This document shows positions 5,911-12,824 of a stretch of 45,026 bases of DNA, piece after piece (the stretch's first letter is position 1; each line of letters begins with the position of its first letter). The stretch is taken from assembly GCF_000231055.2 (NCBI RefSeq), contig NZ_CM001466.1, positions 739,418 through 784,443 of the forward strand. Direction: 5' to 3'. The notes beneath the pieces were generated by a model, which worked only from the letters and a program-made list of their open reading frames with translations, made no database searches and had not been told where the DNA came from. The translations under genes were made by a program, and so were the position numbers. Source of the stretch: Saccharomonospora azurea NA-128 (GTDB taxonomy: Bacteria; Actinomycetota; Actinomycetes; Mycobacteriales; Pseudonocardiaceae).

Positions 5911-6210
5911 TCAGACCACCTCGCGGACGTGTCGCGGCGCGGTGCCGTCCTGGCGCTGCGACTCTGCACTGAGACCCTCACGTGCGTCCCCCTTGCCCGT
6001 ATGCCGAAGTCGGCGGCATGCAAAATGCCACAGGACTCCCGAAAACGCGAAACCACTTCCATCTCCTTCGCGTTTCAGGAGCCCCCGAAAGCGATCGAAC
6101 CTCCAAAGACGGAGAATGAGTATAACCACGGCCGCGAGAGTTCATTTAGCCAGCTAAGCGAGAATCCGAACGACGCCTGGAGCCGAATAGTATTCACGGT
6201 GACTCGCGCG
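5911..6210 (-). promoter_or_regulatory. Gap upstream of the tetR gene with palindrome TTAGC-N2-GCTAA
   Basis: This 300-bp stretch between the tetR start and the upstream marR stop has no convincing gene. It is AT-richer than its surroundings, notably 6040-6200. It contains TTAGCCAGCTAA at 6146-6157, a perfect 5-bp inverted repeat with a 2-bp spacer. From memory such TTAGC/GCTAA sites are typical of MarR-type operators in actinobacteria, so one of the two flanking MarR proteins could act here on tetR transcription. This is inference; no clear -10/-35 pair was fixed. Confidence 0.45.
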
Positions 6211-6636
6211 TCAATCACCCGTCTTCGTGAGCAACATTCGCAGGAGCGCGTACTCGGAGCCGCTGAGATTCGCCACGAGCCGCTCCTCCGCCCGCAACCA
6301 GAGCTCCTCCACCGTCGACCGCGCCGCCCAGCCGCGTTCGGTGAGGAACACACGGCTTCCCCGCCGCCCCGGTCGACGCTCCCGGTGCACGAAACCGGCA
6401 CGCTCCATCCGTTGCAGCATCCGGGTGATCGTCGCGGGCGCCGCCTGCACGCGCTCGGCCAGCTCCGACTGCGTGAAGCCGCGATCGTCCCACGGCTGCA
6501 GCAACACCTGTTCCTGACCGCTGTACATCCCGAGAGCGGCGAGATCGCGCGCCAGCTCCGTCCGGCGCTGCCGAGCCGCGATCACGATCCAGTACAGCGC
6601 GGTCTCGGTGAGGCAGTTGCCACCGCGCTCCTGCAC
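6211..6636 (-). CDS. MarR-family transcriptional regulator
   Basis: About 141 residues. The MarR signature is clear: GFTQSELAERVQAAPATITRMLQRMERAGFVHRERRPGRRGSRVFLTERG (recognition helix and wing), preceded by the dimer helix ETALYWIVIAARQRRTELARDL. The frame is open up to 6792, but the upstream residues are Arg/Pro-rich and unlike the family, so the GTG at 6636 is preferred; no strong ribosome-binding site settles it. It is the most upstream of three consecutive leftward regulators. The gene it controls is not evident from the sequence. Confidence 0.8.
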   Translation of the reverse strand: MQERGGNCLTETALYWIVIAARQRRTELARDLAALGMYSGQEQVLLQPWDDRGFTQSELAERVQAAPATITRMLQRMERAGFVHRERRPGRRGSRVFLTERGWAARSTVEELWLRAEERLVANLSGSEYALLRMLLTKTGD

Positions 6637-7011: not shown

Positions 7012-8949
7012 TTACAGCGACTCGGCCAACCTGTTGGCCAGCACCGTGGTGAACCGCTGCGGGTCGGACAGCTCACTGCCCTCGGCCAGCAGAGCCATCC
7101 CGTACAGCAGTTCGGCGGTCTCGCGCAGTGCCGTCTCGTCGGCACCGGCCTGCTGGGCGTCGCGCAGGCCCGTCACCAACGCGTGCTGGGGGTTGAGCTC
7201 CAGAACGCGCTTCGCGACCGGAACCTCCTGACCCGCCTGCTGGTACATCTTCGCGAGGGCCGGCGGGAGGTCGTAGGTGTCGCCGACCAGGCACGCCGGG
7301 GAGGTGACCAGCCGGTTCGAGAGCCGGACCTCCTTCACGTGGTCCGACAACGTCGTGGCGAGCCACTCGCGCAGTGCGTCGAAGCTGCCGTGGTCGGTCC
7401 TGTCGTCGCTCGACTCGCCGTCCTCGCCGTCCTTGCCGCCCTGCTCGCCGTCGAGGTCGACCTGGCCCTTGGCGATCGAGGTGAACGTCCTGCCCTCGTA
7501 CTCGCCGACCTGCTCGACCCAGAACTCGTCGATGGGGTCGGTGAGGACGAGCACCTCCAGACCCCTCGCGCGGAACGCCTCCATGTGTGGGGAGTTCTCG
7601 ACGACCGACCGCGAGGCGCCCGTGAGGTAGTAGATGTGCTTCTGGTCGTCCTTCGCGCGCTCGACGTACTCGCGCAGCGTGGTGAGCTCGTCGGCGGAGT
7701 GGGTGGAGGCGAACGAGGCGATGTCGAGGATGGCCTTGCGGTTGTCGGCGTCCTCGACCAGGCCCTCCTTGACGACCCGCCCGAACTCGCGCCAGAAGGT
7801 GTCGTAGCGGGCCCGGTCGTCCTTCATCATCTCCTTGACCTCGCCCAGCACCTTCCTCACCAGGCGGCGCCGCATGAGCTGGATCTGCCGGTCCTGCTGC
7901 AAGATCTCGCGCGAGACGTTGAGCGAGAGGTCCGCGGCGTCGACCACGCCCTTGACGAAGCGCAGGTAGTCGGGCACCAGCGCCTCGCAGTTGTCCATGA
8001 TGAACACGCGCTTGACGTAGAGCTGCACGCCGCGCTTCGCGTCCCGGTAGTACAGGTCCATCGGAGCCCGCGACGGCAGGAACAGCAACGCCTGGTACTC
8101 GAACGTCCCTTCCGCCTTCACGGTGATCGTGCGGAGCGGGTCGAGCCAGTCGTGGCTGATGTGCTTGTAGAACTCGCGGTACTCCTCCTCGGAGACCTCG
8201 CCCTTCGGCCGCGCCCACAGCGCCTTGCGGGAGTTGATCGTCTCCCACTCGTGGGTGGTCTTGCCGTCCTCGGTCTTCTCCGTGCGCAGCCGGATCGGCC
8301 ACGTGACGAAGTCGGAGTAGCGGCGCACGAGGTCCCGCAGCACGCTCTCCGCGGTGTAGTCGTGGAGCTGGTCCTCGGCGTCCTCGGGCTTGAGGTGCAG
8401 GGTGATCGCGGTGCCCACCGGGGCGTCCGCGTCGTCGAGGGTCTCGACCGTGTACGTGCCGCTGCCGTCGGAGGACCAGCGCGTCACCTCGGACCGGCCC
8501 GCCTTCCGCGTCACGAGGGTGACCGTGTCGGCGACCATGAACGCCGAGTAGAACCCGACACCGAACTGGCCGATCAGGTCGACGTTCGCCGAGTTCTTCG
8601 CCTCGCGGAGTTGTTTGATCAGCTCACCCGTTCCCGACTTGGCGATCGTGCCGATGAGCCCCACGACCTCGTCCCGCGACATGCCGATGCCGTTGTCGCG
8701 GACGGTGAGCGTACGCGCGACGCGGTCGACCTCCAGATCGATGTGGAGGTCGTCGATGTCGATGCCGCCGGCGTCGGCGAGATCCTTGTCGCGGAACGTC
8801 TCCAGCCGGAGCTTGTCCAGGGCGTCGGATGCGTTCGAGACGAGCTCACGCAGGAAGATGTCCTTGTTCGAGTAGATGGAGTGAACCATCAGCTGCAGGA
8901 GCTGGCGAGCTTCCGCCTGGAACTCATGCGTCTCGATTTGAGCAGTCAC
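7012..8949 (-). CDS. htpG: Molecular chaperone HtpG (Hsp90)
   Basis: A full-length 645-residue Hsp90 homologue, an ATP-driven cytosolic chaperone. The GHKL ATPase motifs are present: [35 protein letters not shown] with SGT lid start, and [15 protein letters not shown]; the middle-domain catalytic arginine region reads [12 protein letters not shown]. The C-terminal dimerisation domain ends LANRLAESL and lacks the eukaryotic MEEVD. An acidic Gly/Asp/Glu linker ([16 protein letters not shown]) interrupts the C-terminal part. The GTG at 8949 is preceded by GAGGAG. It is a single gene with its own terminator hairpin and a 153-bp divergent promoter region shared with the peptidase gene. Confidence 0.98.
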
Positions 8950-9102: not shown

Positions 9103-10344
9103 ATGCGCAGGCGCCTGCTGTCCTTGACCCTCGCCGCCGCCCTCGTGGCCACGGTGTCGCCCGCCGCGTCCGGGGCGAGCGCCGAACCGGCCGCGGGCGC
9201 GGAGCCCACCGCGGAGATCGACTACCACGAGTGGGCCGACGTGGCGGCCTTCCACCGCGGTGAGTCCGACGGCGTGCGCGCCACCGGCACCGGCCTCCGG
9301 CTCACCCGGGCGACGCCCGCCGACGACGGCACGGAGTACGGCCGCTGGACCTCACCGTGGTACGAACCGGGCTTCGCCGCCACCGAACTCGTCGCCTCCT
9401 GGAACGCCACCACCCCGGACGGCACGTGGGTGACCATCGAGGCCACCGCGCGGACGGACAGCGGCGAGAACACGGCGTGGTACGTGCTCGGGAAGTGGGC
9501 GTTCGGCGACGGCGACATCGAGCGCACCACGGTGGCGGGCCAGCGTGACGAGCACGCCGCCGTGTACGTGGACACGCTCGCGGCCGCCGACGGTATCGCG
9601 TTCGAGGCCTACCGGCTTCGGGTCACCCTGCACCGCGAGGATTCGACCTCGGCCACACCGCGCGTGCGTGCGCTGGGCGCGATGACGTCGGACGTCCCCG
9701 ACCGCTTCACGGTGCCGACCTCCGAACCCGGCGCGGCCCGGGGCATCGAGCTGCCCGTCCCGCGGTACGCGCAGAACCTGCACTCGGGCAACTATCCCGA
9801 GTACGGCGGCGGTGGTCAGAACTGGTGCAGTCCCACCTCGACCGAGATGGTCCTGGAGTACTGGGGGCGCGGCCCGGACTCCTCCGAGCTGTCGTGGCTG
9901 CCCGACGACTACGTCGATCCGACCGTGGCACACGCTGCGCGGCACACCTACGACTACTCCTACGAGGGCACGGGCAACTGGCCGTTCAACACGGCCTACG
10001 CCGCCCACTACGGGCTGCGCGGCCACGTCACGCGCATGCACTCGCTGGCCGAGCTGGAGGACTACGTGGCCGCGGGCGTTCCGGTGGTGACGTCGGTGTC
10101 CTTCCTGGAGAGCGAGCTCGACGGCGCGGGCTACGGCACCAACGGCCACCTCATGGTCGTGATCGGCTTCACGCCCGACGGCGACGTCATCGTCAACGAC
10201 CCCGCCTCCAACACCAACGAGGGCGTGCGCAACGTCTACCGGCGCGACCAGTTCGAGACCGTGTGGCAGCGCACCCAGCGGCACACCGCCGACGGAGGCG
10301 TGGCGGGCGGCCCCGGCGGCATCGCCTACGTCATCCGACCCTGA
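9103..10344 (+). CDS. Secreted C39-like cysteine peptidase
   Basis: A 413-residue exported protein. Residues 1 to about 28 form a Sec signal peptide (MRRRLLSLTLAAALVATVSPA, then SGASAEP). Residues 30-200 are a beta-rich region of unknown function. The C-terminal peptidase domain shows Cys242 in GGQNWCSPTSTEMVLEYWG, His349 in NGHLMVVIGF and Asp366 in VIVNDPAS, the C39_2 (peptidase C39-like) triad. It probably cleaves proteins or cell-wall peptides outside the cell; the substrate is unknown. The ATG at 9103 fits the signal peptide but lacks a strong ribosome-binding site. It stands alone, divergent from htpG. Confidence 0.9.
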   Translation: MRRRLLSLTLAAALVATVSPAASGASAEPAAGAEPTAEIDYHEWADVAAFHRGESDGVRATGTGLRLTRATPADDGTEYGRWTSPWYEPGFAATELVASWNATTPDGTWVTIEATARTDSGENTAWYVLGKWAFGDGDIERTTVAGQRDEHAAVYVDTLAAADGIAFEAYRLRVTLHREDSTSATPRVRALGAMTSDVPDRFTVPTSEPGAARGIELPVPRYAQNLHSGNYPEYGGGGQNWCSPTSTEMVLEYWGRGPDSSELSWLPDDYVDPTVAHAARHTYDYSYEGTGNWPFNTAYAAHYGLRGHVTRMHSLAELEDYVAAGVPVVTSVSFLESELDGAGYGTNGHLMVVIGFTPDGDVIVNDPASNTNEGVRNVYRRDQFETVWQRTQRHTADGGVAGGPGGIAYVIRP

Positions 10345-10409: not shown

Positions 10410-10931
10410 ATGACTCAGCCGGGCTCCGTCCACAACACCGCGGAACGGCCTCCCCTGGTCGCCGAACCGCCCCTTCCCGACCTCGTGCTCGCCCCGATGA
10501 CCGACGGCGACGCCGCGGAGGTGCTCGTCCTCCAGCGGTGCTGCTGGGTGCAGGAAGCCGTCGCGAACGACATGCTCGACATCCCCGCGCTGCACGAGAC
10601 CGTCGAGGACGTGGCCGGCTGGCTCCCGAGCTGGCAGGCGTGGTGTGTCCGCAGGCAGGGACGCCTGGTCGCGGCCGTCCGGGCCCAGGCCGAGGGCACC
10701 ACCTGGGAGATCGGCCGGCTCATGGTCGCGCCCGACCTGGCCGGGCAGGGACTCGGGAGCTGGCTCCTGGACTACGCCGAACGACAGGCGCCGACGGGAA
10801 CGACGACGTACTCGCTGTTCACGGGAGTGCACAGCCATCGCAACCTCGCTCTGTACCGGCGCGCCGGCTACGTCGTCCGACCCGACGCAGATGCTCCGGC
10901 GGGCGCCGTGGCACTGACGAAGAGTCGCTGA
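10410..10931 (+). CDS. GNAT-family N-acetyltransferase
   Basis: A 173-residue acetyltransferase. The acetyl-CoA-binding motif A is clear, IGRLMVAPDLAGQGLGSWLLDYAE (Gln-Gly-Leu-Gly loop), followed by FTGVHSHRNLALYRRAGYV (motif B). The N-terminal half (LQRCCWVQEAVANDMLDIPAL) resembles actinobacterial GNAT proteins of unknown substrate. The ATG at 10410 is the first in frame, 65 bp after the peptidase stop. It faces the DUF2017 gene with 43 bp between stops. The substrate cannot be told from the sequence. Confidence 0.88.
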   Translation: MTQPGSVHNTAERPPLVAEPPLPDLVLAPMTDGDAAEVLVLQRCCWVQEAVANDMLDIPALHETVEDVAGWLPSWQAWCVRRQGRLVAAVRAQAEGTTWEIGRLMVAPDLAGQGLGSWLLDYAERQAPTGTTTYSLFTGVHSHRNLALYRRAGYVVRPDADAPAGAVALTKSR

Positions 10932-10974: not shown

Positions 10975-11466
10975 TCACAGCCGAAGGTCGTGGTGCAGCA
11001 GCTCGGGACTCGACGCGAGCACGAGACTGTCCTGGACGTGGTTGAACCACAGGGAACTCAGGTCGAGCTTGCCCCGGCTCCGGCGCCACCACCGACGACG
11101 GGGCGGGTCCACGAACCGCGCCAACGCGAAGGTTTCGATCCAGTCGTGCACCTCGGGCGGCGACAACACGTGGTGCGGCGCGGCCGCGAGCTGATCGCGT
11201 ACCCGTCGAGGGGCGGCGCTGTCGCGCAGCCGCGCCGCATGCCGAAGCCGAAACTCCGCCGAGTCGGCGGGCGTCGCGTAGGCGTCGGGAAACATCCACA
11301 CCAGGGTCCGCTCGTCACCGCTCTCCAGAACCCGCACGAGCCGGTCGGCGTGGTCGTGGAGGGTCGACGCGAGATGGCTCCCCATCCGCACGGCGACTCC
11401 GCCCGCGGCGGGAACGGCGTCGAAGTAGTCCGGCGTCACGTCGCGCCACTGGACGTCGTCGGTCAT
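10975..11466 (-). CDS. DUF2017-like protein paired with a ClpS-like protein
   Basis: A 163-residue protein that I do not recognise by strong motif but which follows the DUF2017 layout: LESGDERTLVWMFPDAYATP, a helix with DSAEFRLRH, then LSPPEVHDWIETFALARF and the C-terminal SSLWFNHVQDSLVLAS. In actinobacteria DUF2017 genes normally follow clpS (for example the Rv1331-Rv1332 pair, from memory). The same order and an ATGA overlap with the upstream ClpS-like gene occur here. The ATG at 11466 is fixed by that overlap. Function is unknown; a ClpS co-factor or regulator is a fair inference. An insert of basic residues (PPRRRWWRRSRGK) is unusual. Confidence 0.65.
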   Translation of the reverse strand: MTDDVQWRDVTPDYFDAVPAAGGVAVRMGSHLASTLHDHADRLVRVLESGDERTLVWMFPDAYATPADSAEFRLRHAARLRDSAAPRRVRDQLAAAPHHVLSPPEVHDWIETFALARFVDPPRRRWWRRSRGKLDLSSLWFNHVQDSLVLASSPELLHHDLRL

Positions 11467-11750
11467 CGGCACCACACCGTCGTCCGCAGGCCACAGCGCT
11501 GCAGGGACACCGCGAGATTCTCCGCCTCGGCCTGGCTTCCCGGCGCAGGGACGTCCGCCGACCGCCCCCAGTGCACCCGGCGCGTGAGGTCGATCGCGTT
11601 CGGCCAGGGCAGCCCGCACAGCCGGTGCAGCGCGTCGATCACCACGAGCGCCGAGGTGATCTCGTCGTTGTGAATTCGTACAAACCACTCACGCGACACC
11701 GGCACATCGTGCCATGGCCGGCCATCCGGCCCCGTGCTGCCCGCGATCAT
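11463..11750 (-). CDS. Divergent ClpS-like N-degron adaptor
   Basis: About 95 residues from the ATG at 11750 (a TTG at 11777 would add nine). The body WFVRIHNDEITSALVVIDALHRL ... AIDLTRRVHWG ... GSQAEAENLAVSLQRCGL lines up with the ClpS fold. The E. coli N-degron pocket residues Asn34, Asp35, Thr38 and His66 correspond to Asn28, Asp29, Thr32 and His60. The hydrophobic pocket residues Met40 and Met62 are replaced by Ala34 and Thr56. The normal housekeeping clpS neighbours are absent, so this looks like a second-type ClpS with altered end-residue preference. It overlaps the DUF2017 gene and follows the LuxR regulator gene on the opposite side of a 48-bp gap. The Clp link is inferred. Confidence 0.72.
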   Translation of the reverse strand: MIAGSTGPDGRPWHDVPVSREWFVRIHNDEITSALVVIDALHRLCGLPWPNAIDLTRRVHWGRSADVPAPGSQAEAENLAVSLQRCGLRTTVWCR

Positions 11751-11798: not shown

Positions 11799-12824
11799 TC
11801 AGTCGAGGTTCGGCTCACCCGAGAGCACTCCCGCGCGCGCGGCCGCGACACCGAGCTGGAACCGGGTCGCCACCCCGAACCGCTCGTAGAGCCCGGTGAT
11901 GTACCGGCGGAGCGTGCGGGTCGAGATGTCGAGCCGCCGCGCGATCGCCTCGTCCGACCGGCCGGTGCTCAGCTCCACCAGTACCAGGAGTTCGATCTCC
12001 CGCCACACGTCCTTGTCGTAGTCGTACTCCGACACCGGGAGCGCGCTGTCCCACGCGTCCTCGAAGAACTGGGCGAAGAAGGCGACGATGTTCGGGTCGC
12101 GGGCGATCACCCCGCCCTCGCCGCACGACCGGGACTGCAGGACGGCCACGCGGTCGTCCACGAGCACCACACGGCTCGGCACCGACACCGTCGTGCGGCA
12201 CTGCCCGCCGATCTCCTGAACGTGCCGCAGGTAGTTCAGACCTTCTCGCTGCCTGCGAGCGGTGTGGGGGTAGATGGAGCGGATCTCGATGCCCCGCTCG
12301 TACAGGGCACGATCCGCCGAGAAGTCGACGCGCACCGCGTCGTCGGAGGCGACCGTGGGATGCATGGCCCGCACGCTGTGGCGGGCGCCCACGACCAGCT
12401 CGGTCAAGGTCGTCTGGAGGTCCTCCGGCACGCGGATCTTCTCGACGCCCGGCTGCACCTGCTCCCGGTTCGTCTCGGCGAGCATCGCCGCCTGCAGTTC
12501 GTCGAGGACGGAGCTCAACGAGGTCGTGCGCTCGGTGAGTTTCGTGTACTCGGCCCGCAGCCTGGACAGGAAGTCGACGAACGCCAGCCGCGGCCGCGTG
12601 GCGACCCACCGCGAAGGCTCACCACCCTGCGCCTCCACCGATCCGGCGTCGGTGAGGCACTCGAGAACGGATCTCACCGTCCACGTGTCCCATCCCGTCG
12701 CGGCGCAGCATTCGGCAAGCGTCGCGGGGCCGCGGGACAGGAACCGATAGACCTCCATAGCGGCGTGGGTGAGGTGGCGGAACGCGGTAGCGGGATCATC
12801 TTCCGGGCCGTGCTCGTCACTCAT
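11799..12824 (-). CDS. LuxR-type HTH regulator with TrmB-like N-terminus and PLD-like sensor region
   Basis: A 341-residue regulator. An N-terminal winged-helix-like segment (AAMEVYRFLSRGPATLAECCAATGW) is followed by a coiled region (FLSRLRAEYTKLTERTTSLSSVLDELQ) and a central domain with a phospholipase-D-like pattern (RALYERGIEIRSIYPHTARR ... VPSRVVLVDDRVAVLQ). It ends in a LuxR DNA-binding domain: LLVLVELSTGRSDEAIARRLDISTRTLRRYITGLYERFGV. This architecture is common for orphan actinobacterial regulators. The ATG at 12824 has AGGAG seven bases upstream; the frame is open farther up but is not protein-like. It is transcribed toward the ClpS pair. Inverted repeats upstream (12889-12907, 13069-13094) may be its targets. 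Confidence 0.87.
   Translation of the reverse strand: MSDEHGPEDDPATAFRHLTHAAMEVYRFLSRGPATLAECCAATGWDTWTVRSVLECLTDAGSVEAQGGEPSRWVATRPRLAFVDFLSRLRAEYTKLTERTTSLSSVLDELQAAMLAETNREQVQPGVEKIRVPEDLQTTLTELVVGARHSVRAMHPTVASDDAVRVDFSADRALYERGIEIRSIYPHTARRQREGLNYLRHVQEIGGQCRTTVSVPSRVVLVDDRVAVLQSRSCGEGGVIARDPNIVAFFAQFFEDAWDSALPVSEYDYDKDVWREIELLVLVELSTGRSDEAIARRLDISTRTLRRYITGLYERFGVATRFQLGVAAARAGVLSGEPNLD

Follow-up and report, generated by a model that had tools for sequence, protein, structure and literature searches.

A divergent ClpS coupled to a DUF2017-like protein in Saccharomonospora azurea, a candidate re-tuned adaptor pair

In E. coli, according to PMC12493166, Met40 of the adaptor ClpS acts as a gatekeeper that shuts out beta-branched residues, and ClpA is contacted by Glu79, Glu82, and Lys84; delivery requires the N-terminal extension of ClpS, which is fed into the ClpA channel (PMC9663308). 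Divergent second ClpS proteins include cyanobacterial ClpS2, Agrobacterium ClpS2 (4yjm), and Leptospira ClpS1. The cyanobacterial protein has another specificity, with Leu, Phe, Tyr, Val, and Ile as bound residues (PMC7966870), and Leptospira ClpS1 has Tyr as its gatekeeper, Asp in place of His, and Val in place of Lys84 (PMC12493166). A similar two-protein arrangement, with a second protein working alongside ClpS, is that of plant plastid ClpS1 and ClpF, proposed in PMC7966870 to be a binary adaptor.

Our literature search recognised no paper on the ClpS-DUF2017 paralogs described here, and none using the word DUF2017. In the housekeeping arrangement of Actinomycetota, ClpS (PF02617) is paired with a DUF2017 protein (PF09438), a family that to our knowledge has no known function. 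Here we examine a second pair of this kind in a window of 45,026 nucleotides, the whole stretch of DNA analysed, from the 4.76 Mb, one-contig genome of Saccharomonospora azurea NA-128. Fold, gene order, a four-nucleotide overlap, Asp35, and Glu82 are common to the two arrangements; in contrast to housekeeping ClpS, the paralogs have Met40 and Met62 replaced, carry a mostly aliphatic residue rather than Asp at position 84, and do not conserve Asn34 and His66, and the window pair lies outside the housekeeping operon. Unlike the other second ClpS proteins, the ClpS here is coupled or fused to DUF2017, and whereas ClpF carries uvrB/C and YccV domains, neither is among the Pfam matches of the DUF2017 paralogs.

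The locus and the three ClpS/DUF2017 pairs of the genome

The features discussed below are these, in window coordinates except for the last:

11463..11750 including the stop (coding 11466-11750), minus strand: ClpS-like paralog of 95 aa (ClpS2), from the ORF list, PF02617, and fold
10975..11466, minus strand: divergent DUF2017 paralog of 163 aa, its start overlapping the clpS stop through ATGA
11799..12824, minus strand: LuxR-type (GerE) regulator by Pfam, the adjoining neighbour, ending 48 bp upstream of clpS2
10410..10931, plus strand: GNAT acetyltransferase by Pfam, a convergent neighbour downstream of the pair
9103..10344, plus strand: secreted-looking Peptidase_C39_2 protein by Pfam, syntenic across the genus
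7012..8949, minus strand: HtpG-like (Hsp90) gene, to judge by its sequence, syntenic across the genus, a neighbour
L005:4497-5368, contig C1 of the same genome: second divergent pair, inside the housekeeping clpS operon

Both reading frames of the pair and their ATGA overlap, reported in an earlier note made from the letters alone, are present (L127 in our locus set is the window's own locus), and Pfam bears out the neighbours named there, giving GerE for the LuxR regulator and GNAT for the acetyltransferase. The start of clpS2 is taken as the ATG at 11750, with TTG 11777 or a GTG closer to the core as possible alternatives. A frame-bias gene caller overlooked the pair and chose an antisense ORF instead, and an initial scan of genome contigs with the window ClpS as query returned no relative. 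These are two real genes: other genera carry the same pair, and in each of the seven comparisons made dN falls below dS, so the pair is not a product of chance.

The window ClpS2 barely passes the PF02617 cut-off of 23 bits (23.5 bits), and it has a clear ClpS fold, in which roughly 20 low-confidence N-terminal residues precede the ClpS core; score and fold together make it a true ClpS paralog, as had been proposed. At E<=0.1 PF02617 matches 19/19 rows of alignment A1, three of which are housekeeping. The likeness of its partner to DUF2017 also holds, though through its family rather than through a Pfam match of its own. The window protein has no match to PF09438 up to E 1 and is one of two misses in alignment A2, whose other members (10/12) match at E<=0.1; profile-profile comparison of the paralog family with DUF2017 by hhalign gives 91.8% and E 7.5e-7. 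A DUF2017-paralog HMM matches 155/345 genomes of the class, our own genome counted, and also picks up the housekeeping DUF2017 of other families: at the outside-family loci inspected, 19/19 matches score with the housekeeping DUF2017 model too and have a ClpS in the same locus. The immunity protein Imm75 (PF15660) was rejected as an identity for the window protein, at 18.5 bits against a cut-off of 25 and with the window as the only one of the 12 A2 members to match.

PF02617 locates three sites in the genome, scoring 86, 32, and 23 bits with the window as the weakest, and the genome holds three ClpS/DUF2017 pairs. The search for a housekeeping locus that the earlier note had called for found one elsewhere, so the window gene is not the only clpS of the genome. 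There, a strong DUF2017 (185.6 bits) comes directly after clpS and overlaps it at GTGA; a Peptidase_S58 gene is next, and then the second divergent pair, again overlapping at GTGA. The ClpS of that pair has His at the Asn34 site and Gln at the His66 site, and its DUF2017-like protein matches the paralog HMM at 2.0e-10, with no Pfam match at E 0.001. The ORFs downstream of this second pair resemble what are presumably Mec, CysO, and CysM.

Coupling, fusion, and descent of the pair

The ClpS paralog family is real and patchy within Pseudonocardiaceae. With the window ClpS as query, matches were found in 43/200 genomes of the family and 14/46 genera. The DUF2017-paralog alignment reached 87/297 genomes and 22/46 genera at E<=0.001, although at least three of its weakest matches (G010, G052, and G091) sit where the housekeeping DUF2017 is expected, and 72/297 genomes at E<=1e-6 by manual count. 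Among the 30 best DUF2017-paralog loci, window counted, a ClpS domain lies directly upstream in 28; no upstream ClpS was found at L136 or at L143, the DUF2017 match of the latter being partial. Where the two genes are separate (24 pairs), the clpS stop reads ATGA in nine, GTGA in ten (19/24 together, some of which also allow a start displaced downstream by a few bases), and CTGA in five. Two-frame splits of ClpS occur at L140 and at L125, a locus (G265, 496-1980) with two paralog pairs in tandem, of which the first is affected.

In four of the 28 coupled loci (G283, G140, G285, and G204), ClpS and DUF2017 form a single ORF. The 266-aa fusion of G283 exceeds both Pfam cut-offs (ClpS 46.3 and DUF2017 47.6 bits); in G285 ClpS is above its cut-off and DUF2017, at 17.5 bits, under it, and in G140 and G204 only ClpS is above the Pfam cut-off, the DUF2017 part being recognised by the paralog HMM alone. 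The three fused genes of one genus cluster together in the tree (100/98) and G283 falls elsewhere, so fusion likely arose at least twice. Being encoded apart in most of these genomes and as one ORF in others is a classical sign of partners, and this, with the gene coupling, supports the proposal that DUF2017 is a likely physical partner of ClpS2. We regard this fusion and coupling evidence for a partnership of DUF2017 with ClpS as the strongest new point. That the pairs are kept side by side, and fused in a few relatives, suggests that ClpS2 and DUF2017 work together and may have been re-tuned toward another target.

A DUF2017 tree of 52 rows, which kept 14/40 housekeeping rows, separates the housekeeping proteins from the rest by a starred branch (100/100). 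Paralog copies labelled in-operon or dispersed are intermixed in it, these labels having been assigned from match positions and several "dispersed" ones assumed. When DUF2017 proteins of other families are added (18, one of 19 being under the 70-bit cut) and the paralog set is reduced to 23 chosen members, these still form one side of a branch (100/99). Inner forks are often weak and branches long in these trees.

Family searches list 11 to 12 genomes of Saccharomonospora, and we compared the locus in four. By the NG86 method, clpS2 has dN 0.194 and dS 0.80 between the window and G111 and 0.357 and 0.747 between the window and G144, and the DUF2017 paralog 0.256 and 0.961 between the window and G144. 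The htpG-like and C39 genes of the window are 82-92% identical to those of G111, G144, and G128, whereas clpS2 is 70% identical in G111 and 52% in G144, and DUF2017 64% in G144; the pair evolves fast relative to its neighbours. It looks intact in the window and G144. In G111 (L065, 6447-6938) the DUF2017 paralog ends in one frame and has its middle in another, through indels or assembly errors. G128 keeps the htpG, C39, GNAT, and LuxR genes at 85-92% identity to the window, and between its intact GNAT and LuxR genes (L082, about 5960-6260) there is a decayed clpS with a 29-residue match and, within that locus, no DUF2017 match. The pair is therefore lost in one and disrupted in one of the four genomes: it is decaying within the genus and is dispensable in G128, where both genes were lost together. 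The LuxR and GNAT genes adjoin this decayed locus. In G111 and G144 neither of them is next to the pair; a LuxR homolog in G144 sits at a distance of about 4.5 kb.

Pocket and docking-face residues

We tabulated residues for ClpS sequences of both kinds, 31 distinct housekeeping ones and 49 paralogs (window counted), with relatedness unweighted; anything scoring under 40 bits was dropped, as were duplicates and one copy of the window gene. Housekeeping ClpS has N34, D35, N38, M40, M62, and H66 in 31/31. At the same positions the window ClpS2 has N, D, T, A, T, and H, and G111 is identical there; the earlier description of Asn34, Asp35, Thr38, and His66 as present, with Met40 replaced by Ala and Met62 by Thr, was thus accurate. 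The genus ortholog in G144 has D, D, T, M, T, and Q.

Across the 49 paralogs, position 34 is N in 28 and D in 18, position 66 is His in 30, and Asn34, Asp35, and His66, the set that binds the alpha-amine, occur all together in 18, the window and G111 included, by an eye count in which two rows were incomplete. Position 40 is highly mixed (F16, Y6, A5, T4, I4, M4, V3, D3, L2, G1, K1) and position 62 is T22, A20, and M5, so that, of the hydrophobic gate, Met40 is retained in 4/49 and Met62 in 5/49. By these counts the paralogs usually lack both Met residues and do not usually keep the polar set. The Caulobacter ClpS variant M53A reportedly accepts beta-branched residues, and solved structures of it exist (3g3p and 3g1b).

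Asp35 is found in 48 paralogs with one gap, and so is Glu82. The other two sites of Hsp100 contact vary: position 79 is E14, A13, D10, and others, against E26 and D5 in housekeeping ClpS, and position 84 is L23, V8, I7, M4, and others (L/V/I/M in 42/48 scorable rows), against Asp in 31/31. The window ClpS2 keeps Glu82 and has Ala at 79 and Leu at 84. Counted from the ATG, if that is its start, 21 residues precede the core Trp; six relatives have two to seven, at starts picked by hand near the core.

What the pair may do

We tentatively favour, at a strength somewhat short of probable, a reading in which ClpS2 and its DUF2017 are a duplicated binary adaptor, docked through Glu82 on an Hsp100, most likely ClpC, with a remodelled pocket for another ligand. 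After duplication of the clpS-DUF2017 pair, ClpS2 and the DUF2017 paralog would bind each other, ClpS2 would dock on the Hsp100 N-domain through the retained Glu82 of helix 3, and the remodelled pocket, together with DUF2017, would select a different, lineage-specific ligand for presumed delivery to ClpP. In place of Phe/Leu/Trp/Tyr N-degrons this ligand might be one specific partner peptide, or an N-terminal residue that is smaller or beta-branched. The altered contact sites 79 and 84, the absence of Asn34 or His66 from many paralogs, including the G144 ortholog, and the loss or disruption of the pair in 2/4 genus genomes speak against this reading. Against simple delivery stand the short extensions of the six relatives, a weak argument since their starts were hand-picked. 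The earlier note had also proposed a specialised adaptor, with the kept polar set as a pointer to other N-terminal residues. The ClpS paralog and its likely DUF2017 partner stand, but the pointer does not: with the polar set in only 18/49 paralogs, D34, M40, and Q66 in G144, and a variable position 40, a different N-degron is one option among several.

Retention of Glu82 while the pocket residues drift would also fit an anti-adaptor or decoy, in which ClpS2-DUF2017 occupies the ClpC N-domain, or the housekeeping ClpS/DUF2017, without substrate handover, and so damps N-degron or other ClpC proteolysis. The short extensions of several relatives at the chosen starts are in keeping with this, as are the reports that ClpS-assisted delivery is inhibited when the extension is kept out of the ClpA channel (PMC9663308) and that both Leptospira ClpS proteins inhibit the ClpA ATPase (PMC12493166). 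We hold it to be unlikely, however: the window copy has its 21 residues if ATG 11750 is the start, and Asp35 in 48/48 scorable rows implies that the pocket was not simply abandoned. The mostly aliphatic position 84, where housekeeping ClpS has Asp, and the ClpS-DUF2017 fusions could instead reflect a Clp-independent complex, in which the ClpS fold serves as a structural partner and its former ClpA-facing surface is buried on DUF2017; with Glu82 in 48/48 scorable rows, and the same coupling (GTGA) in the housekeeping pair whose face is unchanged, this is distinctly improbable. Slightly more doubtful again is a duplicate that was once useful and is now weakly constrained and being lost from Saccharomonospora. 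The G128 locus, with its four conserved flanking genes and clpS remnant, the displaced middle of the G111 DUF2017, the fast evolution relative to neighbours, and the frame-split ClpS of L140 and one L125 copy all point that way, but intact overlapping pairs in many genomes, the grouping of the paralogs on one side of a supported branch, and dN below dS all count against it.

Three further links were considered and rejected. The ClpI paper (PMC10149685) suggests that ClpS may serve ClpI, a third Hsp100. There was no co-occurrence in 20 chosen genomes, with ClpI proxied by PF10431 counts: four PF10431 matches occur in the genus members G062 and G024, both without a window-ClpS match, and G090, with its operon copy only, as in G000, and G193 has the pair with only three. 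Those three, judged by frame lengths, are probably ClpB, ClpC, and ClpX. In G193 (L071, 1856-6870) dnaK-grpE-dnaJ and a MerR-type gene come immediately before the pair, as though it closed a heat-shock operon. A heat-shock link is not general, however; chaperone neighbours were seen there and in the window genus (htpG-like), and no further one by eye at the other paralog loci inspected. An HspR-type HAIR repeat is absent from the window, the number of ClgR-box-like matches (67, with 55 expected) is close to chance, and the minus strand upstream of the pair showed no promoter-like site.

The C39 protein (9103-10344) has at least 585 relatives, the best 80 of which are mostly from Pseudonocardiaceae with some from Micromonosporaceae. 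The pair was found by HMM in 0/80 of these other loci; among the 80 is L164, where G128 has its decayed copy. An htpG-like gene lies in the flanks of the C39 gene in 2/80, and the closest named relative among the matches listed is from Saccharomonospora sp. NB11 (87%).

The single-ORF fusions predict that DUF2017 is the partner of ClpS in the housekeeping pair too. In its widest form, which we judge rather doubtful though conceivable, DUF2017 would be a dedicated physical co-adaptor of ClpS across Actinomycetota, and the Pseudonocardiaceae would have duplicated, moved, and re-tuned the module into a family of binary adaptors with their own pockets and a common glutamate for docking on the Clp unfoldase. 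With its pocket varied around the ClpS gatekeeper, the paralog family offers a ready-made natural collection that may be of use for understanding N-degron specificity and for N-terminal amino-acid binders.
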